This document shows positions 18,117 through 41,755 of a stretch of 64,000 nt of DNA, piece after piece (positions within the stretch are counted from its first letter, which is position 1; every line of letters begins with the position of its first letter). The notes under the pieces are model-generated. The model was given only the letters and a program-made list of their open reading frames with translations. It did not search any database and was not told the origin of the DNA. The DNA is from Panagrolaimus kolymaensis. Taxonomy: Eukaryota > Nematoda > Chromadorea > Rhabditida > Panagrolaimidae. Both the position numbers and the translations under genes were made by a program. Location of the stretch: positions 9,114,001 through 9,178,000 of the forward strand of contig JAJQJQ010000004.1 of the NCBI GenBank assembly GCA_028622995.1, written 5' to 3'.

Positions 18117-18252
18117 ATTTTAAAACGATCTATTTAATAAAAATAAAAGTATGCATGATACTATAATACCGCAATATGAGTTAACTATTTTCGCCGCACC
18201 AAAAAAACTATCGCGAATCCAGTTTAAAAGTTTAAAATAATCTTGATCTTAC

Positions 18253-18404: not shown

Positions 18405-18996
18405 CCGAAATTGGGTGTTTATAAAATAAAATACAGTTAAAAAATAAAAAATAAAAAATTTATACTAGTTTTTATTAATTAAAAAAAAGTATCATCATCA
18501 AGTCCAGTTTAAAAAAAGATGCAAACAAAAAAGTGAATAAAAATTTAACGAATGGTTTGAATTTTTCTATAGTTTTATATTTTTATAAGTAAAAAATTTG
18601 TTTTTTGAAAAAATGAAATCAAACAATAAAAAGCACAGTTTTTGTTATTAGCTATGAAAAGACTGTTCAGTTTTAAAAAAGTTTTATATCAAAAACATGG
18701 AAAAAAAAGCACATAGAGACACCCCGCTACAGTTTAAAATGAAAGCTATACGATTGATTCAAAAACAGTTTTTCTCTTAAAAATATAAACAAAAAATATT
18801 TTAAAAAAAGAAAAATATTTAAAAAAAATGGCAATACTATTTTTTTCGTCAGTTTAAATATTTTCTTCAAAATAAATAATTTCCTTTTTTTGTTTTGTTA
18901 TTTCAAACCCTATTTTTTTTAGAAACTCAGTTTTTTTTTAATTTTTCAAAAAAAAGATATTTAACTTTTTTTATTTTTAGAGACCAAAGAAACATA

Positions 18997-19957
18997 CAAT
19001 GCCTGACATCCAACCGAAGTCAATGTAGTCGTTTGTAACCGTTTGTTATCGTTTGGCACCGGTCGATGCATTGCCAAACTTGTGGGGTAAAAGAAATGTT
19101 TGAAAGCAAAAATTTGATAAAATTTTGCATATTTATCAATATTTTTTCCATATTTTTTTAAACAAAATATAATTACTAAAATGTTTTTGCTATGTTACTG
19201 TTGTTTCATGAAATTCGCAATCATTTGAAGCAACTACTGATTGACATAAAGTAGAGTTGAAGCCGTTTCGTTATGGTTGTCAAAATCAATTTTTTTTTTG
19301 ATCATCAACATCACTTCGTCCACAACTTGCCCACGACCACGTCTTCCTCGATTTACTCTTTCTGCCTTTAAACAAAATTCACCTTAACGTAAAAAAATAA
19401 GTAACTAACCGAAGGGTCAAATCTTTCAACAGGAATAACATTTTGGCCGCTGCGTGTCGTTCTTTGAGAATCTGAGGTCTGAGAAGATGACATGTTTGAA
19501 TTCAAGATCATCCAAGTTTGGAAAAAGAAAGACTGATTAAAATGAAGGGAAAAAAAGCTATGAATATCACTTGTTCTTATAAAAAGGGGCTAAAAATAGC
19601 TTGAATGGCTATCATTGATTATGCTCTCTTTGGTGGAGGCAAAGGTGAATGTTTCCCGCTTTTTTATTGAATTAAAAAAAGGTTGAACGTTATTTGATAG
19701 TTTCATGATGCTAAACAATGATCAAATAATCCATGAAAAAGATATTTGTGACATAAAAAACATGTAAGCATATTAATTTCATTAAAAATATTGAAAATAT
19801 GTAACAAAAAATAATAATACAGTATGCAAAATTTTATCAAATTTTTGCTTTCAAACATTTCTTTTACCCCACAAGTTTGGCAATGCATCGACCGGTGCCA
19901 AACGATAACAAACGGTTACAAACGACTACATTGACTTCGGTTGGATGTCAGGCATTG
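18997..19957. mobile_element. TA-flanked DNA transposon with 134-bp TIRs
   Basis: Near-perfect inverted repeats lie at 18997-19130 and 19824-19957, beginning CAATGCCTGACATCC. A TA dinucleotide flanks both ends (18995-18996, 19958-19959), as in Tc1/mariner-type insertions. At 961 bp with only a small internal ORF it is a non-autonomous or deleted derivative. TIR identity is very high, which suggests recent activity. It interrupts the motif array and contains none of the motifs. Confidence 0.88.
19190..19511 (-). CDS. Short two-exon ORF inside the TIR element
   Basis: Exon one (19511-19410) reads MILNSNMSSSQ... RTTRSGQNVIPVERFDPS, then a GTTAGT donor. Exon two (19365-19190) starts AERVNRGRRGRGQVVDEV and ends at TAG. 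About 93 residues, Ser/Thr-rich then basic RGRRGRG. No transposase DDE/D motifs can be seen. It may be the N-terminal remnant of a longer transposon protein or a captured host exon pair. Confidence 0.4.
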
Positions 19958-21430
19958 TAGTTTTAAAAAAAATAAAAATCTTGACATTATTGATTTATTT
20001 TTTGAAATGATTTGGCAAAAAAAGGTCAGATCAATTCATCGTACAGTTTTTAATTCATAAATAATGTTAATTTTTTTGTATCTGTGAAACTGGTAAATAT
20101 TCATATGCAGTTTAACAAAATAAAAATAATTTTAGATGCTTAGAAAAAAAAAGAAAGAAATTTTTTTCAAAAGTCAATCGAACTTTTTTGTAAACAGTTT
20201 TTATCCTAGATACAAAACGCAAATGCAGTTTTTTTCGTTTAAATTTTTTAAACCCATGAAAGTACATTCACAGTTTATTATTCTGCCTTTCATGAATTCA
20301 ATGAACAAGCCAGACATTCTCAATAAAAATTTTACCAACAAAAAAATATCAAATAGTGTTATTTTAATTTTTTTGTAGCCATCTTGCATTTAAAGCCCAA
20401 AAAGCAAAGATTTTCAGCTAAATTTCCTTAACCCTTTTCACAAATACGATGCAGTTTTTATTTCTAAAATGTTGCCGCTACATACATATTTGTTGCATAT
20501 AAAATTCGTTGCTGCTTCTTTTTTTTTTTACAAACAGTTTAAAACATTTCAAATATATTTTTTTAAATGTAACAATTATGTTTTTAGGAAATTCGTTGAC
20601 GAGTGTGCGTGGAGCTACAGTTTTGTTTAAACCACCGAATATTGATCATAATTTTAGCTTTTTTTTGAATGTAAATTAATAATTGATTTGTGCAATTTTA
20701 AAATATACATATTTTATTATTCATCAGCAGTTTTTTTTAGAATTTTATTTTTGTTCTTGATGTAATAATCAAATCAAAGTTTATGCTTCATACTACAAAT
20801 GACACAATTTAATTAATTCTTAAAAAACCTTCTTTTTTTTCATCAGCCCATGATGCTAAAAAAGTGACATGTGCATTTATAAAACAGTTTAAAACAAACA
20901 AAAAAATATTATTAATATTAAAGATTTATTAAAACTACGCATTTTCGCTCTCCAGTTAAAAAAAAATTATAAAAATATGCAATCATATCAACAGTTTAGA
21001 TTTTTAGGATATATATTTTTAGATACCATATTTTCCATAAAAAAAAGCATCAAGAATCCTAATATATTTTTAAAAATTGTTGTATTTACGGAATCGTTTG
21101 GTGAACAGTTTTATATAAAATGAATGAAATCCTATGAAATTTCCACGATTAAGTGGTTGAATTCAGTTTTAATTTAAATTTGTCATTGATCAATAATAAT
21201 TCTTAAAGATGAATAAAATAATTTATTTACAGTTAACAGCATTTATTTTTCATAGTTAAAACAATCAATTTGTTAATCATACTACAGATGAATGCAGTTT
21301 AAAAAAAATACTTTTATTGCTACTAAATTAATTTCTAAATTTAATTTTAAATAAAAACAAAAAAGATAAATACCCGAATTAATAATGAAAAAAAAGTTAC
21401 ACCTGAACATTACTTTCCAGTTTAAATTCC

Positions 21431-21474
21431 AAATATCTGAAAGGATTACCGAATCTTTGCCATACATGTATATG
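21431..21474 (-). pseudogene. Relic of TDH exon 2
   Basis: The run ccgaatctttgccatacat, followed by gtat, is shared with the real exon 2 (27840-27910). The frame gives YMYGKDSVILSDI, after which homology ends. Flanking intron sequence is also recognisably homologous to TDH intron 1, so this is part of the same duplication as the exon 4 relic. Confidence 0.75.
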
Positions 21475-22098
21475 AAAAAATAAATGTTTATCAGAAAATT
21501 TAAACGAAGATGCATGTAAGATTCAGTTTTTATTAATCATGGAAAATTATATTTTTTTATGGTTTATACTCCATCAAAATCAAATCAATGATGAGTATTC
21601 GTTCAACTGGGAGATTAAATTAATTTAAATATTTTAAAAAGAGAAGTTAAATTATGATGGCTTTATTTCATCATTTATTGCACTGTTCCACATTTTGTTG
21701 CAGTTTTATCAAACCATAACAATGATCTTCGTGCACAGTTAAAAAAACTTTTAAAAAAATGACGATCGCAAAATTATGGAAAAGAGAAACCATTTTCTTA
21801 TGAACACAGAAGAAAAATCAGTTTATTTTCTTCATATATATTTATTATACCATCAATAAAGCTTTTATCCCTAAATTAAATAGCCGTCCAGTTTTTTAAA
21901 AAAAAATATGTGCAAAATGCAAAAAGAACAGTTTATTTTTCCAAATAATTCTTTGAGTTCCGAAATAAAAAAAAACTTTTCAAAAGCCACATCCGAAATA
22001 TATATAACCGCTCAGTTTATTAAACCAAAATACTTTATACGCTGCAGTTTATTTGTTTTTATCCCTCTCGAATCCCCTAAAAATTAATTAAAAAAGAC

Positions 22099-22160
22099 GC
22101 TTACTTCATAATTGTTGTTAAACTTCTTTCAAGTTTGTCCCATGCCCCCATTTAACAATT
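22099..22160 (-). pseudogene. Relic of the 3' end of TDH exon 1
   Basis: The sequence cgcttacttcataattg followed by ttgttaaacttctttcaag matches the exon 1 end and donor at 28661-28705 with several substitutions that disrupt the Gly-rich nucleotide-binding segment. It keeps the order expected for a - strand copy (exon 1 relic, then exon 2 relic, then exon 4 relic). Confidence 0.75.
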
Positions 22161-23949
22161 CAAAACTGTTTTTTCAATTACAATATAATTTTTTTATAAC
22201 CCTGAATGGTTTAATGCAGTTTTCTATTTCGCCTTTTATGAATTTAATTAATGAACAAGCCAGTTTTATCTTTAACGAGAGTTTAAAAAAACACGAACTT
22301 TTTAATTTTATTTTTACTCTCTTTTTCTAGTTAACGCGAAAACAGCAAAAGTGTTCAGTAAAATTTTCTTTGCCCGATTAAATATTAAGACGCAGTTTTT
22401 ATTTTTAAAATGCTCAAGCTCCACATTTGCTCAACATAAAATTCGTCGCCATTTTTCTGGTGCAAACAGTTTAAAATTTAAAACCTATCGAATTTTTTTA
22501 ATGAAACAATTATAGTTTTAAAAAACACTTTGAAGACTATGGACTCAGTTTTATTTTAACCAACAATCATTAATCATAAATTTAGCTTTTTGTGAATGTA
22601 AATTAATTATTGATTTGTGCAGTTTTAAAAATACACATAGTATTATTTATGCCAGTTATTTTTTTGTATAAAACTTGTTCTTGAGGTAATTAAATCAAAT
22701 TTTTCGATTTACAAGACAGTTTAATTAATTCCTAAACTTTTTTTATCGTCAAATTAAGATGCTAAAAACGTATCATCAAGTGCATTTTAAATGCAGTTTA
22801 ACAACAACAAAAAATCATTATTATTTAAGATTTTTTAATCAAATGTATAATATTTTATTGTTCTACAGTTTAACAAAAAAAAATTAAAATTATGCAAAGC
22901 TATCGATTGTTTAGCTAATTACAATATATTTTTTATAGATAGCTACATGTTATTTTCCATCAAAGTTTCAATAAATATTTCAGTTTTTTTATAACCAAAA
23001 TGGTTTATACCAAAAAGCCTGGAGCTCGGACAGTTTTTTTTATTTTGCAAAAAAATTTTTTACATAAAGTAATTGAAACCATTGACGCAAAGCAATGGCT
23101 AGAGCCAGTTTTTTTTATAAATAAAAGAATTTTAAATGGTTGTTTTTTTGATAAACGGAAAAATTCGAGTACCTAATGTTATGGTATAATTCAATAAAAC
23201 TGAGTTTACCATCAAACTCATTTAATTACAGTTTTTTTCTTCTCTAGCTTTATTCAAAGATTTTGTATTTAATAAAATAATGTATTTAAAATTTATTAAA
23301 CAGTCTTTAAAGAAAAAAAATTTTTTTATCAAAATTTTAATAACTTCTGTTATTAAATAATGAGACAGAAGATCTCATATTATCAACACAATTTTTTTCT
23401 CAGTTTTATAAAAATAATTTTTTTTCTTTCCTTTTTCTAAATGGAAAATGTCTTTATAATAAAAAGTGAGAAAAAGAACCCAGTTAAATAAATTAACTTT
23501 TATTAATAATGCAGTAGCAAAAATGAAACTACTAAAGGTATGGCTCCAGTTTATTTTAAAATGGTTGTATAAACTAATGATAACAATTAATTAAGTTTAT
23601 ACAGCCTGTTTTAAAGTTTTACAAGAAATTTTTCCCTTTTTTAAACCAATAATTTTGTAAAATGAACCACAACAAAATATGGATATCAGTTTTTATTATA
23701 AAAAAAGCCGTTGATAATTACTGTTCAGTTTTTTTAAAAGAAAATTTTTATTGTTACCAAATTCATTTAGAAATTCTATTTTAAAGAAAAATCAAAATAA
23801 AATATAAATACCCGAATTAAAGATAAATCGAAGTCGAGACAGTTTACAAAAAAAAGAGTTATGAACTACAGTTTTAAAAAATGAGAAAAAATCGACGCAG
23901 TTAAAAACAAAAGCTAATTTAAAAAAAAATTTGTGTTGTGCTTTCCCGC

Positions 23950-26900
23950 TCACATTGAAGCAAGCATGGCTTCATTTGATTGATCGGCTGGCATTATTTT
24001 GGCTGATAAGAGTTGCAACATAAGATCCGTGGTTGCTTCCAAATCATATTCGGGCTTCCAATTCCAATCTCTTCGAGCAGTGGAATCATCAAGAGATCGA
24101 GGCCATGAATCAGCTGAAAAAAGAGTTTTTAATCAAAAAATTTCTTTGACAAAATTCAAAAAAAACCAGATGCAGTTTAAATTTTTTTAAAGTTGCTAAA
24201 GCTTACCAATTTTTTGTCGAATGGGGCAAATATTGTATTCAATTTCAAAGTTTGGAATTCGTTTACGAATAGATGCGGCAATTTGTTCTGGGGTAAATGA
24301 AAAACCAGTCACGTTGTAAGTTCGCATGGTTAAGTTTTCTGATGGAGTGTGGAGCATCTAAAATGAAAAAAAAATATTAAGGAACAGTTTTAAAAAAAAG
24401 TATTTAAAAAATAAACCAAAATTTTATGAAAATTTAAGAATAATTAAGAAAAAAAGTATACATAAAATTTAAATTCGCGAAATTGACATTCAAAGCAGTT
24501 TTTTAGAAAGATTAAAAAAAAGTTTTGTTTTTTGCTGAAAATATGAACTCAAAGAATTAATCCACAGTTTTAACTTCTAGTTTCGAATATCCAGTTTTTA
24601 ACAAATTTTTAAGAACTTTTTTCCTATTTACCAATAAAAATAAAATAGATCAGTTTAAAAAAACCTAAGATAAACTTTATAAAAATTTTAATAAACGCTC
24701 CTATTTTGGAACAGTTTTTTATAAGTAAACGGAGCTTGTTTGTTTGATAAAGAATATAAACTCACGGTAAGAGAGTTACAGTTTTCTTGACACTTTCGAA
24801 AAATCCAGTTCTTACTAAATTTAAAAAAAAGTTTTTGGCGATAAAATGCGAAAAAGAAAAATTCTTAACCTCGCGATGGAGTTTTGATTAAACCCTTCTT
24901 ATTTTCCCAAAAATGCAGTTTTTACTTTTAAAATTAACAAGAAAATCGCTGATATTTTTATAACAGTTTATACTAAATTTATAATCCAAAAAGAATTTTT
25001 TTAACGTTTCAGATTTTCCACCTGACATCGTAAGAACCCAGTTTTGTTTTAAATTATATAATTTGATGCCAAATATTTTCTTTTCTTTTAAAAATTTTTT
25101 TATAGTCCCTGATCAACACCCAGGAATTCAGTTTTTTTCAAATAGAAAACCGCAAATGCAGTTTATTTTTAAGTTCAAAACTAAAATGAAAAAAAAATTG
25201 AAGATTACTTTAAAAAATGGCGATATTATTTTTTGTCAGTTTAAATCTTCTATTCGAAAAATATAATTTTAGTTTTTGTTTTTCTTAAATTCATACCGAA
25301 AACCATTTAACACCCAGTTTTATTTTTAATTTTACAATTAAATATTCGTTTTTTTTTCAAGGTTAAAGATATTTCCCTTTCTTTAAAAAAGTTTTTTGTA
25401 GAAAAAAAGTCTTTTCCATCACATAAACTCAGTTTTTTATAGATCCCATTAAAAAACAGCAAATGCAGTTTAATTATAATTAGATTTTCCCCTAAATTTA
25501 TTTACATACCTGAACGACTGAAGTCATGCAATCAGTATCAAACATCATAGGCAATTCCGTGTCAGGCTTTAAATAGCAATTATGTTTTCCAGTTAATAAA
25601 GCATCATAAAATATTTTAATTGCATAATCAGTTGTTCCGCCTCCAGGTTGTACGGTGGAAATAATACCTGGGAATCGAAGGGAGCGAAAATCAACACCAT
25701 ATTTTTCAAAATAATATTCCCCCAAAAGTTCTGCATAGACTTTAGTGACGCCATAAATGGTTCGTGGACGTTGAATAGTTAAATCAGGGGTTTTGTCTCG
25801 TTGCGTGGTAGGACCAAAAGCGCCAATTGTGGATGGAATAAAAACTTTTAATTTGTGTGCTTTAGAAACTTCCAAAACATTTTCCACTCCTCTACTATTG
25901 ACTTGAATTGCGAGGGGAACATTATTTTCAGCAACCGCGGATAAAAGAGCAGAAAAATGAATCAATGTATCGACATTATGGTTCACCACGGCTTCCTCAA
26001 TTGAATCCCTATCCAATATATTGACATAACAAAATGGGGCTAAAAAATATTTTAATTTTTTGATTTTATGAATGAAATGAAGCGAACCACAGCTCAGTTT
26101 TTTTTGTTTGTTAAAAAAGTTAAAACCATTATAAAAAAACTTTACAAACTTTCAATATGATGCGCAGTTTGTAAATAATTTTTGTAGATTTTTTTTATCT
26201 CTAATTATTAAAATTTAAAGCTTCCAAAAATATTATTTTGAATTCTTATGCAATTAATTCCAGTTTCTTATCAATAAATTCTGTGTTTCTCTTTTTTTTT
26301 TTCAAATAGAATTCTTGATTGTTTATTTAAATACAATTTTTCCTTTTTTTAACACCCTTTTATTTTTTTTAATTTCAAGAAATTGAAGAAGAAGAAGAGT
26401 GCGCTCAGTTTGAATGAAATAAAATAAGTTTTTAGATTTCATTTTTTCGAAGCCATTTTTTTTGCAAGACGTACGCGCTTTGTCCTGGTGACAGTTTTTT
26501 CCTAAAATTTTGTAATAAAAATTGGGTTCGTCTTGCTTCTCAAATATCAGTTTTTTTCTAACTTGCCAAAAATTGAATTTATTCCAAGAATTTTAGCACA
26601 TAAAAAATAAATTTTAAAATATTGAGCCTCATTCTTATTCATCCAAACTAGGCGGGTGGCGCGCCTACGGCGCGCCGAGTAAATGTTACTGTTTCGAAAA
26701 TATAATGTTTTTTGATTACAGTTTATAATAAGCAGTTCTTAGTAAAATAAGGTCATACATGCTACTATATCTGTGAAATCTTTGTGCATTTTACTCTTTA
26801 AAAGTCCTTAAAACTCAATCAAAAATATCCTTAAGATTTTCATTAGTATTTTCATCAATTTTGGATTATTTCATGACATTTTCTCGTTTTTGGTCCTCGG

Positions 26901-28928
26901 GATAATTCATTCTACGTGTTTCGAAAAAAGGCTTGATATCAGTTTTTTCTTTTTCTTGAAATCCTCAATCAAAATTAAAAGATCCTTTCTAATAAAACTT
27001 TTAAATGTTTAAAGCGCTTCAAAATCAACAACCATCGTCATCGCTAACATTCCTTGCAATGCAAAGTCTATCTGCATCAGGGATGCTCGATCGTTCGTGG
27101 TTCGGAGTTCGAAGTTCGGAATTTTAGGCAATTTTGTCCGAACATTGTTCGGAGTTCGGATGTTCGGATTTTAAAAAGCAAATTTTTACGTCTCCGAACA
27201 TGGTTCGATGTTCGGATGTTCGGATTCTCCAAAAGCCAAGATCGAGCATCCCTGATCTGCATTCGTTACATTCATGTTTATGCAAATTTTGTTGCACAAA
27301 CTCAAGCCATTTTATGCAAATTTGTTATTTCCTTTATTTTGTTTTTTTGGTCATTGAAACCTTCCAATTATGTCGGGTCCTTACATCCTCGAAATTAGGT
27401 CCTTGGATCCTTCCCTTGATATTAGCTCTACTGATATTATTTCATAGGATTTTTTTCTGTAATTAGGTCTCTACAATTCGGATTTTATGCCCTATTTCGA
27501 TCCCATGCTTTCTCTGGATCCTATCATCTTTTTTTTTAGTTAACGGATCCTTCACTTGATTTTGGTCCTTGGATCCTTCCCCAGCTATTATCTCTACGGA
27601 TCCTTGCCTTGATAATTGAAAGTTTAAAACTTTTAATGCAAATTTATCATTCCCTTTTCTTTCTTTTTCATTCTTTTTTTCTCTGTTTTTGTATTTGAAA
27701 AAAGTAATAAATTTGCATAGAGTGGACGCACAACCTGTTTTAGAAGAAAGGGATTCAGTTTTCATTCAACAAGTTTTTATAAATTCAGTTTGGCTTTATC
27801 TATCTATGCTTTTTGTTGTTGTAAAAGAATTAAGCTTACTTAAATGTTCAAAACCAGCTGGACGTTTACAAATATCCGTAAGAATCACCGAATCTTTGCC
27901 ATACATGTATCTGAAAATAAAATAAATATTTATCATTAAATTTATATGATGATGTATCTAATACCCAGTGTTTATTCTTGAGTGAAATAAAAGTTAATCA
28001 TTTTCTATGTTACACAAATCCATCCAGTTTTCTTATTATTATTTTAATAAATTATTTTTGAAACAGTTTTCTTTTCTATTTATTATTCAAACAAAACTAA
28101 AGTCAAATTCTGGCAAATGTGGGTTCAACTTAAAGACTTTATTGGCAGTTTTATTTTTATAAAGTTAAACATCAAAGGAATTTAAAAAGAATTTAATAGT
28201 TTGGCTTTATTGTTTATTGAAGCGCATTAATTAAACCTACTACAGTTTTATCTTGCTGATAGTTAAAAGGAAAAGAGAGAGAAAACATTTAATTTTTGTT
28301 TCAGTTTAAAAATTAATTCATAATTCGCAATCACACCTTATGACGCCGCAGTTTTAATAACAACAAAAAATACGCATGTTGTTCAACAGTTTTTAATTTT
28401 TTTTAAATTTTGTATGCAAAATATGCGAAAAGCAGTTTCTTCAAATCCGAAAAAAAGATAATCAAAACGTTTATCGATCCAAAATAATAATGCTTTTTGT
28501 TAGCTTTTAAACACTAATATGTTTTACATATGAAAGGTATCAAACAGTTTATATTTTCCAAACTCAAAATAAAAACTAAAAAACCTTTTCCCGCCGTGAC
28601 ACATCTTGTCAACCTCCAGTTTATTTACACAAATATCTCAAAAAAAAATAATTAAAAAAGTCGCTTACTTCATAATTGCTGCCAAACTTCTTCCAAGTTG
28701 TCCCATGCCTCCAGTAATAAGAACTTTGGGTGGGGAATTGCTATGATAAGCTTGAGCATATTTATAAAATTTTACAAATGGATCCGATATTGGAGCTTCT
28801 TGTCCAATGGGTGTAAAACCTCGAGGGTTTTCAGTCGAGGTTCCAATTCCTCGAAATTGTGAAGCTGTTGTTGTTGTTGTTCGTAGAGCCAAAGTTGATG
28901 GAACAACGAAGAGCAAATTTCGCTGCAT
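23950..28928 (-). CDS. L-threonine 3-dehydrogenase, mitochondrial
   Basis: Five exons: 28928-28669, 27910-27840, 26039-25510, 24357-24207 and 24113-23950; about 390 residues. Exon 1 carries a Ser/Thr/Arg-rich leader fitting mitochondrial import, then KVLITGGMGQLGRSLA (the Rossmann GxxGxxG). Exon 3 has IHFSALLSAVAENN, VFIPSTIGAFGP and RPRTIYGVTKVYAELLGEYY, with the catalytic Ser/Thr and the YxxxK pair of short-chain (extended) dehydrogenases, then FPGIIS and PGGGTTDYA. Exon 5 ends with DWNWKPEYDLEATT. It oxidises L-threonine to 2-amino-3-ketobutyrate with NAD+, feeding glycine and acetyl-CoA. All motifs are intact. Its introns (especially 1, 2 and 3) are packed with AAACTG units in sense orientation, and intron 2 also holds a MITE. 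A decayed partial copy lies downstream at 18.2-22.2 kb. Confidence 0.95.
26651..26680. repeat. Isolated GC-only palindrome
   Basis: Thirty bases, nearly all G/C, contain ggcgcgcc twice around a tac spacer, so a perfect 8-bp stem hairpin can form inside very A/T-rich intron DNA of TDH. No TIR/TSD pair could be defined. It may be the core remnant of a MITE. Confidence 0.5.
27078..27254. mobile_element. hAT-like MITE with GTTCGGA subrepeats (in TDH intron 2)
   Basis: A 177-bp element with TIR CAGGGATGCTCGATC / GATCGAGCATCCCTG and a perfect 8-bp TSD ATCTGCAT (27070-27077, 27255-27262). The interior consists of gttcggagttcgga and gttcggatgttcgga repeats in both orientations. Non-coding; the ORFs crossing it are by-products of the repeats. 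Confidence 0.9.
27395..27620. repeat. Degenerate GGATCCTTxxCTTGAT repeats
   Basis: ggatccttcccttgat, ggatccttcacttgat, ggatccttcccc and ggatccttgccttgat occur within 225 bp, mixed with attaggtcc words. They lie just beside the MITE in TDH intron 2 and look like an old minisatellite or decayed element. Confidence 0.5.
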
Positions 28929-30835
28929 AATTAATTACTGTAAAATTTTTTTCCGAAAAAATGAGGAAAATGAAAAAATTTAAAGTAAATTTATAGGAAA
29001 AAAATTCTTTTTTTTATTTCCTAATTTTTTTAGGAAAGAAAATTTTTTTTCTTTTCGTCTTCGATGTCTGTCGATCGGCTGATAATATTTGATTTGATTG
29101 TTGCCGAAAGAAATAAAGGCGGAGTAATCAGAATTGAGAAAAAAAAGAAGCATCCGATTTTTTGATTTCATTGAAAAAATCTTTTTCTTTTTTTTAGTTT
29201 TTGTTTCTGCGCGTGTATGTCTGCGTCATTCATTTAATTAGTTAGTTAAATGAAAAGAGTAAAAACCAAAACCGCAAAATCACAAAAAAATGAAGAAAGA
29301 AAAAAAACTCATCCTTCAACTTCATTAATTTTTTTGTTTCATTAAAAGAATGGAAATGTAAAAAACTAACCACGTGGAAACAGAAACACAGAAACCAAAA
29401 GAAAAAAATAATGAAAGTGCAGTTATTTCTCTTTGATTGATTTTGATCATTAATTCTGCTCGAAACATGCACCGAGCGAGGGTTCCATTATTTAGGCCAC
29501 ATTTTTTTTGAATAAATAGTTTATATTTTTTTTTTGGTTTGTAGAACCGTACTTTTTTTCATAAATATCAGTTTTTTTCTTTTCTCTTGGTGGGACATAG
29601 CTGCTATCACATAGATTTTTTTATATGAGTTACAGTATCTGATAAACAGGCATGTCCGTCCAAGAAATAAAAAATATACACAGTTTTTACTTTTTATAAA
29701 AATTAATTTTGACAGCATCGATGGACGTTAGTATTCAGTTTAATAATGATAATGGAATTGGAACTGAAACATAAAAATTTTTTGTTCAAGTTTCTTTTTC
29801 TTTTTGGGTACAAATAAAAAAAAAAGATGGAAGAAGAGAAAAAAATTCTGCAGCAATAATCACACCATAAAATATAATTATTTTCTCGTTTAATTAATGA
29901 TAACCATGTCACAGAAGATTGCAGTTTAAATATTTATGAAACGATGGTTTGATATTTGCTACAAAACTTGAAAGTTGCAACAACAGGAATTTTTTGAATG
30001 GAAAGGAAAAATGGGGAGAAAAAATTAGAAATAAAAATTGGGGCTTATTAGCTAATTTTAAACATTTTTTAAAATTTTGTTTAAAAAAAACAAGTTATGG
30101 TACTTCCCACGCATGCAGTTAATTTTCATATTTAAATTAATTCGTTATTCACAATTAATCTCGATACTCAGTTTTTATGAAGAATTATATTGAAAAGCAA
30201 TTAACCATAGAAAAAATATTTGGGGCTTCAAAGTATGTATAACAATAAAGTGCAGTTTTAATTTTTTTTAAATATATTTTCGGCTGATGGAATTTATTTT
30301 TTTGGCATATTTTTACATTTCGCTTTTTTCGCACAAATGTGGCAAAATTTTACAGTTTCATTGTATACCAAAAAGGAATTCACAAGCCATCACAGTTTTT
30401 TAAAAATTTTGTTTTGGAAAATATTTTATTTTATGCGCCAATGCGGCAAAAATTATACTTGAGTCAGCTAAAGCAGTTTATTTTGTATTTAAAAATGTTA
30501 ATATTTTATGCTCCTTATGCAGTTTTTATGTTTGCTTAAATTAAGGTTAATTATGGGTAGTAAGAAATATTTTGTCGATATAAAATTTATTAAATGGTTT
30601 TATCATGGATCACGCCGTGCTTCAGTTTTTTAAAGCGAATATTTCTATCTTTGCAAATGCAATACCATATCAAAATGATAGAAAGAACACAGTTTTTTCT
30701 TTTTATTATTAAATTTTCAAAAAAAAACACAAAAAACAACATTTACCAGTTTTTTTTTGGATTTTTGAATTGAATAAATCAAAAGTTTTTGTATAAAATT
30801 TAAATTAATAACCACACCAGAATTAATATGGCAAG

Positions 30836-31059: not shown

Positions 31060-34000
31060 ATGGCAAGGCAGTTTGATTATTTAAAAAAATGTTAAAAATT
31101 TAAAACGCTTGTATTTTTAATGGATAAAAAAATATTCCATAAAAATAACAAGGAAGTTTAAATTAAATATAAATATATTTATAAATTAAACCAATAAGAA
31201 TCTTATAAAAAGCTCCAGTTTTAAAGGTGAAAAAAATTTTTTTAAACAAATTAATAAACGCATGACTATTATTCCTGCGATTATAACGCCCTTCAGTTAA
31301 AAAAATAAAATAAAGCTCTTACAAAATAAAGATCAACGCAGTTAAAAAAATTTTCGTTAATATTTTTTTTTTAAAAAGCTGTCTGTCTATTTGTGATTAA
31401 ATATGGCCAAAAGCGTGTTGTTTGAAAAGCATAGATAATCATGCAACAAAAAAGGCTTTTTTTCCCGGCAGTTTTAATTATGAAATAAAAAATTAATTAC
31501 TTACCTCAAAAATTAATATTTCAGACACAAAATCGTGGTTTACAGAAAAAAAATTTGCAGTTAAAATTCAATAAAAAAATTCTTGAATGAGAAATTCAGC
31601 AAAACCCATGTTTTTTTAAATTCCAGTTCACCCCCGATCACAGTTAATAAAAAATTAAGATTAAAAAAATCTTTTTATGTTAAAAAAAAATTAAGATAAA
31701 AGAAAAAAAATAGAAAATGGTGGAAAAAAATTGATTGCAAGTGAAAGTTGCCAAACATATTATTTTGGAAAGACAGTTAATTACCAATAAAGATATGACC
31801 AGGCTAAAGAGTTCCCAGTTTTAAATAATTTAATTTTTTTAATGAATATCAGTTAAAATTAATCAAGAAAAAATAATTTTAAGCTTCCCAACACTAAAAT
31901 TTAGCCAAGTTTTTTATTTTTAAACAGTTTTTAAAACTATGATGAATCAAAATGAGTAATCTCTTAGGATCAGTTAAAATTATTTATTTCATACGAATCT
32001 AACGAATACAGTTTAAAATTAAATAATCTTACTTGGAGTCTAATGAAATTTTTTTTAAGAAATGTAAAAAAAAATCAAATAATTACCTTCCGTACCAGTT
32101 TTCCAATCAAATCCTACAATTTTTACACTTGTTCCAGTTAATTGAAACCACAAAAGAAAAAATAAACTAAACTTGCAATCATTCTTATTTTCTTTTTTAT
32201 TTAATAATAATGATGAAAGGAAATGAAACAGAAAAAAATGATGAAGATGATGATGGAAAGAAATTGAAACAGCAAATTATCTTTCAAACCAACCAAACAA
32301 CCACACATAAACGCAAAAACAAGAAAAAAATAAAAATAAGGGAAAAAACACGCTTTTTTCTTTCTTCCTTTCTTTTTCTTCCCTTCCGCTACTTTCTATT
32401 TGCCACCTCTGGCTATGATGCTGCTGCCACTGCGCAAAAAGAAAAAAAGAAACTCGAAGTCGATGTTGTTTAAAAGAAAAAAAAAGAAAACCAAAAAAAA
32501 GTTGTTGTTGCCTGTGGCAGCTAATCTCAGTTCTTTTTCTTTGCATTTTTTTTTTGAAAAAAAAGTGGGAATAAAGAAGAAAATTTTCTTCTTTTTGCCA
32601 CTTTTGAGGGTCATATGTATTTTTCATTTTTTTGTTGTTGTGTTATTTTGTTAGTATTTTTTTTACATATGTTTTTTTAAATATTTTTAAGCGCAGTGAA
32701 ACGAAGTTTTTTAAATTGTAAACAGTTTTTATAATACTAAAATGGATTAAATGCTAAAAGAAAAAACGGAAGTTGTAGTTTATGGGAATTATAAGATTTA
32801 ATAAAAAAAAAGCAAAGGGATTAATACACACCTTTATCTTCCGTGCTTAATAAAAACAAAAAACAAAACAGTTTTTAAAGAGAATAAAAATTATTTCCTT
32901 TATAATATATTTGGAACAGTTTTATCAACCAAAAAAATCATTTAAAATGTATTTAAAAAATTTAAATACCATTTATTACAGTTTTTTATATATTTTTTGT
33001 TTAAATCAGTTTTTTTTGCAAACAAAGTGAACAAAAATCTTGGAATTTGACAGTTATTTAACAAAAACCCTTTTAGTGCAAACACGTGTAAATTTTATTA
33101 ATAAATTTGATACGCATTCTTTTTTTTTCATCTGTTGAATTTAAAGGAAATTTAATCCTGCTGCAGTTAAATATTCATTACATTAATTAAGACAATTTAA
33201 ATTAATTAGTGACTATTGAAAAATAAAATTAAAAAAATTTAGCGAATTTAAAACAGGGATAAATGAAATAATTCAGTTTTTTTTAAAATAAAATAACAAA
33301 TGCGAAAATGCTAAAAACAGTGTTTTATTGAATCCAGTTAATAAACTAAAGCTTAAAAAAAGTTGTAAATCTTACTAAAAAATTTTTTGATTTTGGTTGC
33401 TTTTTCCTCGACGTAAGCACTATCACAGTTTTAAAAAATTTTAATAATTTATGGTTATGATGTCCTCTTGATAATAACAAATCACAGTTTAAAAAATAAA
33501 TAAAAGGAAAAATTATGAAGAAATAGAGATATTTAGCATGTTTGTTAGATGTGTAAGCTAATGGGAAGCTGCTACTATGATAGTCTCTAGAAACCAATTT
33601 TGGACGCCTTAATTCAGTTTTTATAGTTTTTAATAACTACAGATGTATCTACTGCGCAGTTTTTTCTTTTAATTTCATTCAAATTTTTCAATAAAAAAAA
33701 TGTTTACCATTCATAACACATTTTCTTCCAATGCAGTTTCAAGAAAAAAGCATTTTTTTAGTTTTCGATTTTTGTAACAAATCTGTTAGTCTTTTTGGCC
33801 AGTTTAAAAACGTGGTAAATTGCAAACATAATTATCACAAATGCTCTTTTCCCAATAAAGTATGAAACAAAAAAGACAAATTTCATTTGACAAATAATTT
33901 ATTTCTCGTCTCCTCAACCAACAATTTTTCTCAGTTTTGATTAAAATAAAAAGTGACTTCTTCTTCTAGCGTTAATTTGGATGGAAACAATGAATGCATT

Positions 34001-34819
34001 GAAATGCGAAAAAAAGAAGAAAAAAACCACGAAATAAATTATAAACGGAAATTAGAGAAAAGAAAAACTTGTTTTCATCTTCTTTCTTTTTATACCAAAA
34101 AAATTTATTGAGTTTTGTTTAAAAAAAGTTAAAAAAATTTAATTTGAAAAGTAAAAGGGGTTAAAAAGAATGGAAAAAATCGGAAATACAGTTTAAAAAA
34201 TTTTGTAACATAAAATTTTAACAAAAAGAAAAGCAGTTTTTAAATATGTAAAAAAGAAATCTGGCAAACTATCATAAAAAAAAGAAATCTTGGAAATCAG
34301 TTTATATTTATTAAAGATTTGTATGTGTCGTCAAAAATATCCATTTTAAAAAATGACGGCCAGTTTTAATATCGAAAATATAATATTTTAGTTATGATGG
34401 GTACATATGTATATTAATGAAGGCCAAGCGTTGGCATTTTCATTCCAAACTAATAATTAAAAATTAAAAAAAAGGTTCCTCGAAGAAGAAAAAATATACA
34501 GTTTATTTAAATTTATAGAAGCTATGTATGGAAAATATTTGGCACATATACACCGCAAAAAACCTAAAATAGAAAGTTTTTTGTTACATCGTCGTAATAA
34601 ACAGTTAAAATAAATTCTTTTGTATTGAATCCAAATTTCCTTCTAGCGCCGCAGTTTTTAATTCCTTCAATAAAATTAGAATATTTCCATTTTCACATAA
34701 AAAAATTTTCACAACTTCTTTTCAATAACAACAAAACCATACGAATTCAGTTTATAAATTTTCAAATTGTTTTACTTCTCATTCCAGTTTTTTTTTCTAT
34801 TTGCAGTTTATAATATATG

Positions 34820-35020
34820 TGTTGCAACCGCACACCTGTTTAAAGAGTGCTGAGTCTCGACACGCTTGTCTTGCATCGCTGCTCGCTTCCATTACCCACT
34901 CTCGCTAGTTTACCTTTGCTAGTTTGTATCTTTGTATTGTTGTATCGTTGTTGACTGTTCCTGTGCTGCAAAGCAATAATAAATATAATCCTTATTTCCT
35001 TGTTGTCTGAGGTTACAACA
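34820..35020. mobile_element. Solo LTR of a retrotransposon
   Basis: A 201-bp block with higher GC begins TGTTGCAACC and ends GGTTACAACA (TG...CA with short inverted ends), flanked by a perfect 5-bp TSD ATATG (34815-34819, 35021-35025). It contains aataataaa near its 3' part, a plausible poly(A) signal. A 5-bp TSD fits Ty3/gypsy or BEL/Pao elements. No internal region or second LTR is adjacent, so it results from LTR-LTR recombination. Confidence 0.88.
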
Positions 35021-35329
35021 ATATGCTTAAATTTTTTTTGAACTATTGCTAAATATGAGACAAAAATTTTTCCAATCTCCAGTTTTAAAATTTTATGAAA
35101 TAAAAATGAAACGTATTTAATAAATTTATCAACAAATACTCTTTTTACTCAGTTATCAAATAACAAATGTAAATATTATCATTAAAGTTTAAGAAAATTA
35201 TGTTATTTATTTTTGTATTTGTAGTCCACATGAATTTTCCTGTAACAGTTATTTTTATTTATGTTTAAAATTTAGTTGTGCCGTGATTTTTTTTGAAAAT
35301 TGATTGAATAAAAGTGGCACAGTTTTAAC

Positions 35330-35614
35330 TAGGGTTCCATCCCCTCCCGCCCCTTAGGGGGATCCCCCTTCCCCCCGCCGATTTTTGCTCCCCGTGCCTC
35401 CCTCCCCGTGAGCCTCAGCCCCCGTCAAAAAAATGTAACACAGGGAGGAGTATGCTAAGAAAAATCCCCCGTCATATTTACAACAAAAAAATTTTTTTTT
35501 TCAAACACCCACAGGGAGGAGTATGTGCTAAAATCCCCCGTAAAAACCTCCCCGAGGCGTGTCCTCCCCTCCCTCTCCCTCCCCGTGGACCATTCCCCCG
35601 GGGGATGGAACCCT
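35330..35614. mobile_element. hAT-like MITE with CCCCTCCC-rich arms
   Basis: A 285-bp element with ends TAGGGTTCCATCCCC / GGGGATGGAACCCTA and a perfect 8-bp TSD GTTTTAAC (35322-35329, 35615-35622). The target is itself the A/T side of a CAGTTTTAAC motif, so the insertion split one unit. Interior: repeated cagggaggagtatg and cccccgt words. Confidence 0.9.
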
Positions 35615-35873
35615 AGTTTTAACTCAAAGCAAAAGAATTTTTTGCTCAGTTTAATCAGTTTAAAAAAACTTTTACCAGGATTTGTATCTTTTTTTACCAT
35701 TTATTTTCTCAACGATACTTTCCCACAAACCTTAAATTTAATACAATTTTGTAAATATTATTATAAATCTATCTTTACAATAGCAGTTTAGAAAAAAGAA
35801 AAAACAATTAAATGTTTCAAATCAAAGTAAACATAAAAATATTTGATATGAAAAGAAAAATAGATATCAGGAA

Positions 35874-36211
35874 CAGGGGTGAGCGGACATGACTTTTCCT
35901 TAGACGGACGGATACGGAAACGGACGTCAGGCAATTCCGTAAAAGCGGATACGGACACGGAAATCCAAAAGTGCCCGGATATCCGCGGAAACGGACACGG
36001 ACACGGAAATTTTGTATTAGAATTTTCATTTTTAAGGCTTACACGGATACGGATACGGACACGGATATTAAAAAAAAAATTTTCGGACGCGGATACGGAT
36101 ACGGACGTGAAAAAACCACGGATATCCGCGGACGCGGATACGGATACGGACGTGAAAAAACCACGGATATCCGCGGAAACGGACACGGACACGGATATCC
36201 GCTCACCCCTG
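35874..36211. mobile_element. hAT-like MITE with CGGATACGGACACGG subrepeats
   Basis: A 338-bp element, ends CAGGGGTGAGCGGA / TCCGCTCACCCCTG. Flanks atcaggaa and attcagga form only an imperfect 8-bp TSD. The interior is a tandem array of 6-12 bp words (cggatacgga, cggacacgga), including a 40-bp unit holding ggatatccgcgga repeated in tandem around 36110-36170. It gives long spurious ORFs rich in Asp/Thr/Arg; these are not genes. Confidence 0.85.
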
Positions 36212-37371
36212 ATTCAGGAAAGGTTATTTTTTTTTTATTTGTATCAGTTTAATTCAGGTAAATTAAAGAAATAATTAGAATTTTCAAATGCAGAAAATAA
36301 GAAGCAAATTTATATTTACAAAAATTCTTTAGATTCACTCATATGTCAGTTAAAATTAAAATCCTGCATAAAACTTATCAGTTTAAAATTCTATTTATTT
36401 CCAAACAAAAATATTATTAATAAACATCTAATACAGTTTTAAAGTAATTTTTTTATATGTATTTTCATGCAGCTTTGTTTTTCATCTGTAACAGTTAGTT
36501 TTTCAATACTTTTTTATGTTGCACAAAATAATTTGCTTCAAACAGTTTTATTTTATTAGTAAAGGCATTTACCATTTTGGTTCCAAATAAAAATAAAGTA
36601 GTTTCCAGTTTGAATTCATTACAACTTAAAAAAAAAGAAACAATAATAATGATAAGCCAGTTTAAATATATACTCTTAATTATTCAACACATTTTTTTGT
36701 GAACAATTCAAGTTGTTAATTTTTTTCACAAGTTTAAAATTGAACATCCAGTTTTTATTTTTACCATCGCCGCCTACTTCCCTCCATTTTTTTTGTTGTT
36801 GTGAAATCATTAGATCTTGCTGCAGTTTATAATAAAAATTATAATATAAATTCGTAAATATAAATATTTTTAGTTTTAATTTATATTTTTTCTTCTAAGA
36901 TTTTTAAGAAATTGCTTAATGTAATGAATAATCAACCTCCTCAAAAGAGCACCCAGTTTATCTTTGCTTTTACGTTTATTTTTAATGCTTTTTTCTTTCT
37001 TTTTTTTTGTTGTTAAATTAGGATTTAAACCATACAGTTTTATTTATAAAAAAAGGAAATGTAAATATCCAACTAAATTTGGCCTTTACAGTTTTAATAT
37101 TTTTTTTTACATTTGTTATTGGCACAACAGTCGATGTCAATGAAAACAGTTTTATTATATTAAAAAAAAATGATTCACCAGTTAACTAACGTTTATATAC
37201 AATATTATTATTTATTTATTTAGAAGAAAAAAAGACATTTGAAAGACCAAATAATTCTTTTTTGAGGCTCCAAAATCCAAAATATTTTTTTGTTTGATTT
37301 ATGGTTTCATTATTTCTGAAAATATAAAATTTTTGAATAACAGTTTTTACATTTAAAAGAAATTTGCTTAC

Positions 37372-39089
37372 TTTCTCTTTCCAAAAGCATAGCATCGATT
37401 GCTTCTTTCGCATCCCCAGTTAATTCATAATTTTCTGCTCCTGTAGATCTTCTTTGAAGAGTGGAAACGGGTTTCAATTCAGATGCATGTTCACTCGTGG
37501 CTGTGGACCTTACAGCAGCTGCTCGAGCTCGAAAATGATTGGTTGTTGGAATTGAAGCTTCTGAAGTTTTAAAACTTCCAGCTTTTGATGGTTCTGATGC
37601 AAAAGCTGAAAATGCATCTGTGTTCCCGCTGCCACCACCACCAGAAGATTTTGAGCTTGAGAAAGAAGGTGGTGATGCTTCAGATTCAGAAACATCAGGG
37701 AAATGTGAGGCATCTCCCATACTTGGAGAAGATGAACCAGACGATGATGATGATGCGGGATTGATTTGTGGGTGTGATCCTCCTCCACCTGAATTTTCTG
37801 AATATCCCGATGATGATGAACCAGACGACGATGAAGACCCTCCACCGCCGCCATTCGATTGACGAAACACTGCTTGCATGGGTTGTTTGTTCCAATTACT
37901 ATATGCCGGTTGATAGCCTTGGGCAATATTAGACTAAAATAAAAAAAGGAATTTATTTTGGTGTAGAAAAAAATTTCTTGAGCGAATAGAGTAATAAAAT
38001 CGTAATTTTGTTAGAGTAAAAAAATTTTTCTTGAAACATCAACTTTCAACAGTTTTAAAAGAATTTGAATTGTATCAAAGGAAACAGTTTTTTTTGTGTT
38101 TTAATATTATCAAAAAAATGTCAAGCATGGACAGTTAAAAAAAATTTGAATTTGTTAGAGTTAAAACCTTACGCATCAAAGCCAGTTTTATAAAAAATTT
38201 TGCCTTCGAAAAATACATTTTTTTAGTGTTTCTTTATAGGCAAGAATGCTTAAATTCGACCAGTTTAAAAAAGATTTTGTTGCCTATACAAGAGTTAAAA
38301 AAAGAAATGCAGTTTTGAAAAAACTTACATCCACTGAATGATGAGCAAATTTATTATATTTGCTTGGAGAATCATTTCCACCCATATCATAATTGGGTCG
38401 ATATAAATTTGGAGTGGATTGATAATTATTATTATGGCTATAACCATCTTGAGATTGTGATTGTTGTTGGTAACTGGGTTGTTGATATGATGAACGAATT
38501 CGGCCATAAATTGGAATTCTCATTAATTGAGTTTGTCCTGAAATAAAAATTTTTGTTGAAACAACTCTTTTCAGTTTTAAATTTATTTCTAACCAAGGGG
38601 TCTCAAAGTTGATGGGTCAATATTAACTGGAATGGGTTGAGAAAAATATCGAATTGCAATGGGTTGGATGTTACTACTACTACCAGGGGGTAAATTTCCA
38701 TATGGAATGGAATCAAAATCAATTCCAGATGACCCTCCTCCACCTCCATCACCACCACTTATGCCACTAGTCGACCCACCATAGCTACCACCACCATAAC
38801 CGCCACTAGAGCCATATCCTCCGCTTGAGCCATATCCAGAGCTGCCACCATATCCACCTCCACCACTGGAGCCACCATAACTATAAACATCGCCTGGATA
38901 TGAATTAGCTACAGCTGCGGAAGCTTGAGGAGCCATTCCATAAATAGGATATCCACTTGGTGTCATCATTCCCGCTGGATATGGTCCAGGCCCTGGTCCA
39001 CCACAACACCCAAGAAATCCCAAACCATTAGCAGCTATTTGACCAAAGAAAAATGAAAATATAATTAAAAACAAAAATATTATTTTCAT
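37372..39089 (-). CDS. Secreted Gly/Ser-rich low-complexity protein (3' end not found)
   Basis: Three exons are visible: 39089-38594, 38537-38329 and 37933-37372. The N-terminus is a clear signal peptide (MKIIFLFLIIFSFFFGQIAA) followed by a CCGGPGPGPYP start, a long Gly/Ser/Tyr repeat (GYGSSGG units), then IPYGNLPPGSSSNIQ. Exon 2 is Gln/Ser/Tyr-rich (SSYQQPSYQQQSQSQ). Exon 3 has GGGGSSSSSGSSS, then an ordered acidic/basic tail ending AKEAIDAMLLERE at a gtaagc donor, so at least one further exon exists. The composition suggests an extracellular matrix or cuticle-associated protein, but I recognise no domain. Both introns carry AAACTG units; exons do not. Opposite-strand ORFs here are shadows. 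Confidence 0.75.
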
Positions 39090-39540
39090 TTTCTTTAATA
39101 TTTTTTTAACTAATATAAAAAATAGTAAAGTAAATTTTTGAACTAAAATTTTTTTGTTTATAAATGTTTTTATTTTATTTTTTTGTTGTTTTTTATTTTA
39201 TATTAAACCGCGGGCGCCGCTGCCTTATGACCTTTTTCTTTTGTCTTTTTGCTTTCCTCGTTACTTTTTTTTCTTCTTCGTGGCCATGAATTCCCACTCA
39301 TTTTCACTTTCTCGTTTAATAATTAATTACTCGTTTTTTTTCATTTACCCATTTTTTTGTTTTGTTTTTGAAATTGTAACGTAGAAGACGAAGACGCATT
39401 CTCGTCTCACTTCAACCGGAACCCTAAAACGTTAATGATTTTTTTGCTTCGTTAAAATTAAACTCGTTTTTTTAAACTTTTTTTTATTGTCGCGCAACGA
39501 GACTAACTTTTTTTTTATTTCATGAAAAAATGCGCCTTTG
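39090..39540 (-). promoter_or_regulatory. 5' flank of the Gly/Ser-rich gene, free of motif units
   Basis: About 450 bp without a single CAGTTT although the array continues on both sides. It contains scattered G/C-richer words (ccgcgggcgccgctgcc at about 39208; gaagacgaagacg at about 39387). Like the TDH upstream region, it seems protected from the array, consistent with a resident promoter. Confidence 0.45.
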
Positions 39541-41755
39541 AGCTAAATGTAAAACAGTTTAAAGTAAATTTAATTTTATTTTTGTAGTAAAATAAAATTT
39601 GAGTTAATTTAAATCAAATTAAAATATTAAATATGACGTAAATAAATAAACGAAACGAACGGTTTTGAAAGTTTAATTTTATTTAAAAAACGTTCTTTTC
39701 AAAATAGTTATTTTTCTTTTATTCCTTGAAACTTTGTAATAAAACGAATGACGATCGAAGACAGTTTAATGCTTAAAAAAAGGGCAAAAATAATGGACGT
39801 GCTCAGTTTTTTTGTGTGGGAGAAATATTTAGTAATATTATTCAGTTTTAAAGAATTTATAAAAAGTGGATATATTTGTTTATTTTATTTTTTTGTATGT
39901 ATGTAATATAAAAGCCATCCATGATACTACATAACAGTTTTAAATAAGCCAAGAATTAAATTTAATTTTGATGTTAAAAGAAAAAAAATAGAAGGCGCCT
40001 TTAAAAGTGACAGTTTTAAATCAAAAGAATCTGTCGATCAAAGCAGTTTTGCAATAAAAATAAATATAAAAGTAATTGGAAGAAATGTTAATAATTGCTT
40101 TTTAAGTTAAAATAAAATTTGGTTTGTGATTTGCAGTTTTATTATTTTTGAAAGATTTCTTTACAAAGGACAGTTTTTTGCCATGCAATCATTGATTGTT
40201 TTTATTTTAAAAAATGTAAATTATTTTTTGAATAAAAATTTATTTAAATTTGAATATCAATAAGCTAAGACTCAAATCCTCAGTTTTTATATTTGTAATT
40301 AATATTTGTTTGAATTTAATTTTAGTTTCAAAAATTTTTTTAAGTCTACAGTTTTCAATTTTCTTTAAATTTTTAAATGGAAAATGCTGTCAGTGCAAAG
40401 ATTTTTTCTCATGGTGCTTTATATTAAAATGGCATGTATGTGAGCAAAAAAGAAACAATGTTTAACAGTTTCTAAATTTATTAAAATACAAAAAAGTGAA
40501 AAACATAAATTAATTTTCATAAACCTTTTTCTTGTCTTTATTCCTTTTCCCCATAGATTCTTAAAAGGCAGTTTTTTAATATGTGAAATTAATTACAATG
40601 ATGCATGTTCGTGGAGTCAATGTATTTTTTCAGTTTTTTATTTTATCTATGTTTACACAGTTTTTTTTTGTTTTGTTGTTCACATGATGGACTTTTATTG
40701 CTCTTTCCCCTTTCGAATGAATGACCTTCAAGTAAGTACAATACGTGAGAATAAATAAAACAATTAAAGGTCAGTTTAAGAACAAAAAGAAAATTAAGAA
40801 GGACAGTTTAATTAATATTAATTGGAGAGAAAAAAAAATACTACCAATAAAAAAACAAATGAATTTTTGTGTTTTCATCTTACGAGGCTGTTGGCAGTTT
40901 TAAAAATGTAAAATGCATGTGAAAACCAAAATGAAATAAGAAAAACAGTTTATTATATAAATTTCATTGTTTTCAAGAAATGGCAAATTTTTTCAGTTTA
41001 AATCAAAAAAATCTAAATCGCAAATGAGTTAATCTTTTTTTCTAAGCATAAAAGCTATCGTTTTTTTCAAAAAAAATTTTTTAAGAAACAAAACCCTGTT
41101 TTCTTTTGGCATCACCGTTTCAAATTAGACTTTTTGGTTTTTGAAAAATGTTCATTGTTACAGTATTTTTTAATTAAGCTGAAAGCAACCAACGGTCAAT
41201 TCCTAAGTCCAGTTTAAAAAAACAAAATAAAAGGTTTGGAAAAGTGGGATATTTTCTAAATATAACAATTTTAAATGAGTATCCAATTCTAGCAACAACA
41301 AAGAAAAATGTTTTGAATAATAATTAATACATATTTTTTATAATTAAAAAAGTATTATTCCTGTTACCTTTATTTATTTATCATCGAAAGCATGACTTGC
41401 GATAGTTTCAAAACAAATTTAACTTCCTTAATTAAAGATTCAAAATTAGCACACATTTTTTCCACGTGAAGAAATCACTTTTTTACTTACCCCTTTTTTG
41501 TATGAATGACTTTCAATCAAGTACAAAACGTGAGAAAATTTAAAAAAAAGTAAAAGACAATTTAAGAAAGATGAAGACGAAGGACATTTTAATTGAGATA
41601 GAAAGTAAAAGAAAAAAAACTATGAACTCTCAAAAAATAAAAAAACGAGTATACGAATGTTTGATTTTTATGTTTTCAAAAGAACCAAACCTGTATTTTT
41701 TTAAATTTTCATAGTTTAAAATTTGTCAAAATGAGTTATTTTAATCCAGTTTTAT
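39541..41755 (-). repeat. Motif-unit domain, block 3 (right end)
   Basis: CAGTTT on + continues, for example near 39554, 39763, 39804, 39843, 39934, 40011, 40043, 40135, 40171 and 40280, becomes sparse after about 41.0 kb, and ends at about 41750. No gene supported; ORFs such as 40250-40465 run through A/T-rich units. Confidence 0.75.

Follow-up and report, generated by a model that had tools for sequence, protein, structure and literature searches.

Single-orientation blocks of AAACTG units in Panagrolaimus kolymaensis as candidate PIWI-independent small-RNA mini-genes

Introduction

What is a 23-kb domain in which a six-base motif recurs in one orientation, each copy abutting a different sequence of about 20 nucleotides (nt)? 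The domain lies in a 64,000-nt stretch of the genome of the nematode Panagrolaimus kolymaensis (GenBank assembly GCA_028622995.1, contig JAJQJQ010000004.1, positions 9,114,001 to 9,178,000 of the forward strand), referred to below as the window. The motif is AAACTG, and we call the motif with its adjoining payload a unit. A first-pass annotation of the window likened the domain to the 21U-RNA (PIWI-interacting RNA, piRNA) gene clusters of Caenorhabditis elegans. Panagrolaimus belongs to clade IV of the nematodes. Clade IV has been reported to be without PRG-1 (PMC6436959, PMC4323106), and how its members police transposons after the loss of PIWI is an open question. Here we show that AAACTG is conserved between homeologs and that the payload beside it changes faster than the DNA surrounding the unit. 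From these sequence patterns we assign a probability of about 0.5 to the reading that the units are PIWI-independent, piRNA-like guide mini-genes with fast-diversifying guides.

Results

AAACTG units form blocks of a single orientation

We counted the motif in the window and the neighbouring 200 kb (264 kb; positions above 64,000 are window-relative and lie outside the window). The one-orientation domain that the first-pass annotation had placed at 18430-41755 is borne out by the counts: its + strand holds 173 CAGTTT sites, at a median spacing of 84 bp, and 3 AAACTG sites, where the genome average predicts about 8 per strand in 23.3 kb (95,689 + 94,909 = 190,598 AAACTG/CAGTTT sites in 2 x 265.8 Mb; the assembly comprises 265.84 Mb in 807 contigs). 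The block starts slightly left of the earlier limit, with its first unit at 18220. In its full extent (18220-41755, - strand) it contains 174 AAACTG and 29 TAACTG units, with 3 and 2 sites in the opposite orientation. TAACTG, likewise enriched and stranded, is a second accepted form of the motif; the remaining one-mismatch variants of AAACTG showed no comparable strandedness in the main block.

A second block in the window, overlooked earlier, lies at 1413-4035 in the opposite orientation (+ strand; 20 AAACTG and 5 TAACTG, versus 3 CAGTTT and 1 CAGTTA). Across the 264 kb, hand merging of 14 runs gave ten one-orientation blocks, each 1.3 to 23.5 kb long and sharply edged, with quiet sequence in between. 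Inside them are 678 AAACTG and 164 TAACTG sites in the sense orientation (842) versus 16 and 7 in the other (23); the 177 kb outside the blocks hold 69 and 35 motif sites.

Such co-orientation and sharp edges would suit a model in which a whole block is transcribed as a single long precursor, with AAACUG (or CAGUUU, if the other strand is read) serving as an RNA processing mark at which one guide is released from every unit. Strongyloides ratti, whose 21-22U RNAs occur in same-strand groups (PMC9203780), offers a precedent. We keep this model mainly because independent mini-genes leave the orientation of whole blocks unexplained, but we hold it to be distinctly unlikely. Gene-like open reading frames (ORFs) of either strand lie inside the blocks, and AATAAA shows no depletion in the main block, with 97 copies on the motif (-) strand and 95 on the + strand. 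In the blocks at 97002-101556 and 154399-157248 the ORFs run opposite to the motif, including the RasGEF-like ORFs (named by eye) at 154-157 kb; these antisense ORFs also rule out a motif orientation that is strictly sense to genes.

The motif is clustered in megabase domains

The clustering anticipated in the first-pass annotation is also seen at genome scale. Triplets of the form AAACTG-N25-55-AAACTG-N25-55-AAACTG number 2058 + 2103 in the whole genome, versus 142 + 174 for the reversed control, and two rarer triplets gave 118 versus 1 and 66 versus 2. The rarer triplets fall on contigs C3, C5, C18, C20, C23, C40 and C42 and three small contigs in 99 of the 100 matches listed (118 in total) and in 65 of 66, the exceptions being on C8 and C2. 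Among the matches listed, triplets on C3 lie from 6.8 Mb onward; those on C5 lie at 0.2-2.6 Mb. Outside megabase domains on a few contigs, motif triplets are nearly absent. Locally, there are 46 triplets and 678 AAACTG sites in 264 kb, and a rough extrapolation gives ~57,000 AAACTG units in the triploid assembly and ~23,000 units of both forms per haplotype. Homeologous contig sets such as C3/C18/C42 agree with the reported triploidy of P. kolymaensis (PMC10374039).

Anatomy of the unit

To profile the unit we used the 596 AAACTG sites left after de-duplication on a 50-base key, numbered with the first A of the motif as 0; we excluded the block at 111394-115948, a duplicate, both here and from the spacings. 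GC content is elevated between +6 and +26 and depressed between +27 and +47, and the sequence ahead of the motif is A/T-rich, in line with the earlier description of a motif that abuts a GC-richer payload of 20-28 nt and is set in A/T-rich sequence. Expectation maximization with a free offset recovered a weak second box, TKGA, near +22 to +25 and most often at +23, in about two thirds of the sites (log-likelihood 143, versus 24 for shuffled payloads). Apart from this box, no strong fixed element was found between -75 and +75, nor does the payload begin with a fixed T (frequency 0.40 at +6, versus 0.38 in the background). Only 8 of 783 unit-to-unit spacings are shorter than 26 nt, and this floor, together with the GC and box profile, defines a unit of 26-27 bp. 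All 596 payloads are distinct; given the prior de-duplication, this means no more than that a payload does not recur in differing contexts.

A decayed satellite, that is, an old tandem repeat of which only AAACTG is still recognizable, would account for the common orientation within each block. We find this hardly credible: the spacing is irregular with a floor at 26 nt, the de-duplicated payloads all differ, the motif is constrained with a payload that changes faster than its flanks (see below), and none of the 16 rows returned by Tandem Repeats Finder for the window is an array matching the units. The constraint profile contradicts such an origin, and the tandem units alike over their length that mark satellite DNA proper were not seen. 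Rfam gave no match in the window at the gathering score.

Three further readings were tried and set aside. CAGTTT as a splice site does not fit the preceding sequence, which is GC-richer and has no T run; a polymerase III T-run terminator does not fit the roughly one third of sites with just three T after CAG. A transcription start site at the T-G step at +24/+25 is not preferred because the fast-changing stretch would then stay untranscribed.

A conserved motif adjoins a fast-changing payload

We compared homeologs in two regions: region 1, the window block against C42 and C18, and region 2, 134-153 kb against C18. Region 1 yielded 143 covered comparisons of 190, with 47 dropped; in region 2 incompletely covered sites were dropped, leaving 66 in one count and 80 in another over nearly the same range. 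Homeolog L075 aligned just partly and was not used, and the intron at 10690-10915, which is 35% different and possibly misaligned, was not taken as a neutral standard. The block is present in both homeologs with its relative orientation preserved, at ratios of 73:1 (C42) and 81:1 (C18).

In region 1, identity is 0.89-0.99 at the motif positions, 0.63-0.80 at +6 to +24 and ~0.82 around the unit. Expressed as mismatch, the payload differs by 25.1% from C42 and 22.1% from C18, the motif by 6.8% and 3.7%, and in-block DNA away from units by 11.6% and 10.0%, with near flanks at 11.3-12.7%. Region 2 shows 5/405 (1.2%) for the motif and 205/1150 (17.8%) for the payload (+6 to +23), alongside 6.6% in in-block DNA away from units, ~9% in near flanks and 5.4-11% in noncoding DNA outside the blocks. 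Fourfold-degenerate sites of eight region-2 ORFs differ at 26/416 (6.2%); the ORF ends were hand-trimmed for this count, and one ORF (DLD3?, 0/14 fourfold sites but 5.8% at codon positions 1 and 2) was dropped. The payload of region 2 changes almost three times as fast as synonymous sites (p = 1.5e-9), and the motif changes more slowly than fourfold sites (p = 1.5e-4), with bases treated as independent in both tests. Upon re-alignment of region 2 with MAFFT the counts were 226/1101 for the payload, 12/383 for the motif and 198/1899 and 139/1301 for the flanks, giving a payload/flank ratio of 1.56-2.38 by site bootstrap.

Correction for base composition was applied to the three comparisons with in-block DNA outside units (unit margin 0 to +26) as the scale; the L-threonine 3-dehydrogenase (TDH) exon window, 25400-26160, was left out of these rates and of the decoy rates below. 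The relative rates were 0.40 for the motif, 2.44 at +6 to +12, 1.92 at +13 to +19, 2.22 at +20 to +22, 1.67 at +23 to +26 and 0.92 at +27 to +29. With flanks at 1.19-1.24, the payload changes 1.6-2 times as fast as the flanks. The step from +5 to +6 is abrupt (0.42 to 2.77), and the excess dips at +16 to +19 and fades at +25 to +27. After seven pooled decoy hexamers, the next 18 nt differed at 100/730, 99/703 and 85/933 positions, near flank level, compared with 25.1, 22.1 and 17.8% after AAACTG in the same three comparisons. AAACAG and the opposite-strand CAGTTT, the latter outside the pool, gave 20-25% in region 1, with 2-4 sites each. TAACTG units showed the payload excess in region 1 (28% and 23%).

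Individual units span this behaviour. In the unit at 23526-23552 (- strand; AAACTG at 23552-23547) the C18 homeolog has an identical motif, with 7 of the 20 payload bases shown differing. A slow example at 24943-24969 (- strand) is identical in C18 over the motif and the 20 payload bases shown, and in C42 has TAACTG with payload changes and a gap.

These data could also be explained with no RNA at all, if AAACTG were a DNA-protein binding site (related to pairing, domains or repair) whose bound protein disturbs replication or repair, making the adjoining 20 bp mutate faster. The excess is tied to the motif, starts at the very next base and fades within ~20 bp. Moreover, the payload exceeds in-block DNA away from units by similar factors at differing divergence (2.2, 2.2 and 2.7 for C42, C18 and region 2), as a mutation bias would give, and it is mainly because of this similarity in both regions that we keep the explanation. 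We nevertheless regard this live rival as unlikely, since the effect is one-sided, every substitution type rises with payload GC staying above its surroundings, and a lone binding site needs neither a second box nor a minimum unit length. All 12 substitution types are up 1.9- to 3.6-fold, complementary types alike and nearly strand-symmetric. This is expected from selection and not from one lesion type, and it speaks against deamination of one exposed strand.

Argonautes and candidate promoters

A search of the genome for the Piwi family gave 143 exon matches. Twenty were fetched, and the 16 that were readable in frame are presumably ALG-1/AGO, WAGO and CSR-1-like, as judged by eye from known signatures. 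The first-pass annotation had suggested looking for a PRG-1/PIWI orthologue. We searched the assembled sequence exon by exon with a PIWI-clade domain (PDB 7yfq, from a sponge), and none of the 56 matches proved to be a PIWI-clade gene; the best had E 9.7e-15 with 25% identity. An exon adjoining the ALG-1-like Piwi exon gave the highest identity (41% over 56 residues); by comparison, 7yfq shares 58% identity with 9s0z, another PIWI-clade protein, over the searched stretch.

We also looked for [AT]AACTG or CAGTT[AT] upstream of U2 and spliced leader RNA genes. Neither occurred in 12 upstream regions of U2 (from 15 U2 matches), and the U2 promoters have in common a long element without AAACTG or CAGTTT. 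Among spliced leader (SL) RNA upstream regions, 2 of 20 (from 42 pattern matches) contained the motif. Exact SL1 leaders are present in the genome. Two SL1 RNA-like genes lie between blocks at C3:9093466 and C3:9100218, each with the leader followed by GTAC and with identical upstream sequence; their promoters appear unlike those of the GTAA set.

Other features of the region

The main block contains a TDH exon (NAD epimerase family) in an ORF at 25498-26151 (- strand), with zero CAGTTT starts inside, which served as a coding control. It also contains glycine-rich ORFs at 37310-39197 (- strand); the two that were scanned, 37310-37933 and 38589-39197, had no Pfam match. An element at 18990-19964, bounded by inverted ends of 142 nt (99% complementary) that enclose 691 nt, splits the main block and has no units; it is probably a transposon insertion. 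At 26646-26999 there is a repeat of ~350 bp with at least 30 near-full copies (86-98% identity) on many contigs, and a stretch of ~1.1 kb that contains it (26648-27752) is missing from both the C42 and C18 homeologs. A GC-rich repeat at 35851-36234 is built of CGGACAC/CGGATACGG units and includes CGGATATCCG palindromes. Two stretches, 42200-46700 and 58300-63500, are occupied by various diverged repeats, many of them at intervals of ~1.4-1.6 kb.

The blocks at 97002-101556 and 111394-115948 are two copies of one AAACTG block, doubled by a 14.39-kb tandem duplication (C3:9209233-9238016; 14,392 bp, 100% identical) that is either a recent duplication or an assembly artefact. Being identical, its copies are useless for separating mutation from selection. 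C214:16976-18927 and C42:893352-895301 have the same or nearly the same query scores, and C214 is probably a redundant haplotig of C42.

Discussion

We take each unit of 27 bp as probably a very small gene for a small RNA, read in the AAACTG direction. The motif is conserved, the adjoining ~20 nt change fastest, and the GC-high then GC-low order fits a pausing/melting signature reported at nematode piRNA loci (PMC6436959). In this model, AAACTG is the predicted core promoter or initiator, the unit would be transcribed on the AAACTG strand, the ~20 nt of fast-changing sequence would supply the guide portion of a short RNA, and transcription would pause and end in the A/T-rich stretch after the payload. 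With its 5' end at the last G of the motif (a T-G step) and its other end at +26, the predicted RNA would be 22 nt long and begin with G. RNAs of 22 nt with a 5' G are the form bound by worm-type Argonautes, and the guide may be loaded into one of the WAGO/CSR-1-like type. The payload varies fastest right at the motif edge, as a guide seed would, and its speed of change may reflect an arms race with transposons or other targets. The array would then likely do the job of the lost piRNAs, with units working like C. elegans 21U genes but outside that family. In the most specific version, each haplotype of this post-PIWI lineage would carry some twenty thousand guide genes that start at the last G of AAACTG and yield 22-nt 5'-G RNAs for worm-type Argonautes, with diversifying selection making the guides change faster than synonymous sites; as a whole we offer it tentatively and consider it rather doubtful.

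Several observations weigh against the small-RNA gene reading. In region 1 the payload changes at about the synonymous rate: TDH fourfold sites differ from C42 at 20/76 (26%, payload 25.1%), and those of TDH (16/76) and the esterase (11/77) differ from C18 at 17.6% (payload 22.1%). These two genes, the only ones available there, range from 14 to 26%, and the claim of faster than neutral change therefore rests on region 2. In region 2, TAACTG units lack clear acceleration (16/159), and one decoy, AAATTG, is high (32/204). The motif itself is not untouched, being wholly identical in just 105 of the 143 region-1 comparisons. The 596 profiled sites show no 5'-nucleotide preference at a fixed offset, the motif itself aside, and the strand is put in question by the TKGA box, which on the other strand reads as the initiator-like TTCMA. 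AAACTG is unlike the U2 promoters and most of the SL RNA promoters examined. Finally, independent mini-genes give no reason for one orientation over 1-24 kb.

If the units make RNAs, a free-living parthenogen would have a motif-driven counterpart of the 21U system that is independent of PIWI, and the strand, start and length of those RNAs would be predictable from the sequence. If the region-2 result is general, the pairing of a conserved start signal with guides that outpace synonymous sites would show directly, as is rarely possible, an arms race acted out in the guide sequences. Even without RNA, a six-base tag that directs one-sided rapid change of ~20 bp at thousands of sites would represent a new type of mutational behaviour. 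Titles and abstract openings of the papers found on Panagrolaimus piRNAs and small RNAs, and on selection on nematode piRNAs, mention no such units.

How do the units compare with known systems? In type-I 21U loci of C. elegans the Ruby motif lies ~40 nt upstream of the RNA, which is 21 nt long, starts with a 5' U and derives from a short-capped precursor. The 21U loci of C. elegans and C. briggsae are short mini-loci in an A/T-rich setting and in megabase clusters, with a conserved motif and payloads that are not conserved (PMC6436959, PMC9203780, PMC9683057). The units match them in this layout, including their number in the thousands, and this much of the first-pass proposal stands: clustered one-strand mini-units with an abutting motif, here in megabase domains, to which the fixed motif with its hypervariable payload adds. 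Membership of the PRG-1/21U family does not, and we judge a canonical PRG-1-type cluster very improbable in a clade reported to be without PRG-1 and in a genome whose assembled sequence gave no PIWI-clade gene in our search. AAACTG adjoins its payload, in contrast to CTGTTTCA ~40 nt upstream, and CAGTTT on the other strand has only GTTT in common with the GTTTC core of the Ruby motif. The blocks are of one orientation, whereas piRNA loci of C. briggsae and Pristionchus pacificus lie on both strands (PMC9683057, PMC6436959). C. briggsae piRNAs are described as being under little selective pressure (PMC9683057); the payload here is faster than synonymous sites in one of two regions. We do not file the units under the C. 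elegans 21U clusters because the search of the assembly found no PIWI-clade gene and the units lack the Ruby motif, likeness to the SNAPc-type promoters examined (U2 and most SL RNA genes) and a fixed 5' U.

Intronic piRNAs of the Pristionchus type are spread widely and lie sense to their genes as often as antisense (PMC6436959). The units resemble these in lying around gene-like ORFs and in their GC-high then GC-low order, but are domain-confined and co-oriented. The nearest biological parallel, by analogy, is found in S. ratti, also of clade IV, where piRNA-like 21-22U RNAs arise independently of PIWI from clusters that span 1 and 2.7 Mb of a single chromosome (PMC9203780). Those loci were discovered through their RNAs, which are 21-22 nt long with a 5' U monophosphate, and lack an upstream motif, whereas the units described here are known from sequence and have one; the two have in common a PIWI-less setting, a piRNA-like layout, same-strand groups and clustering.

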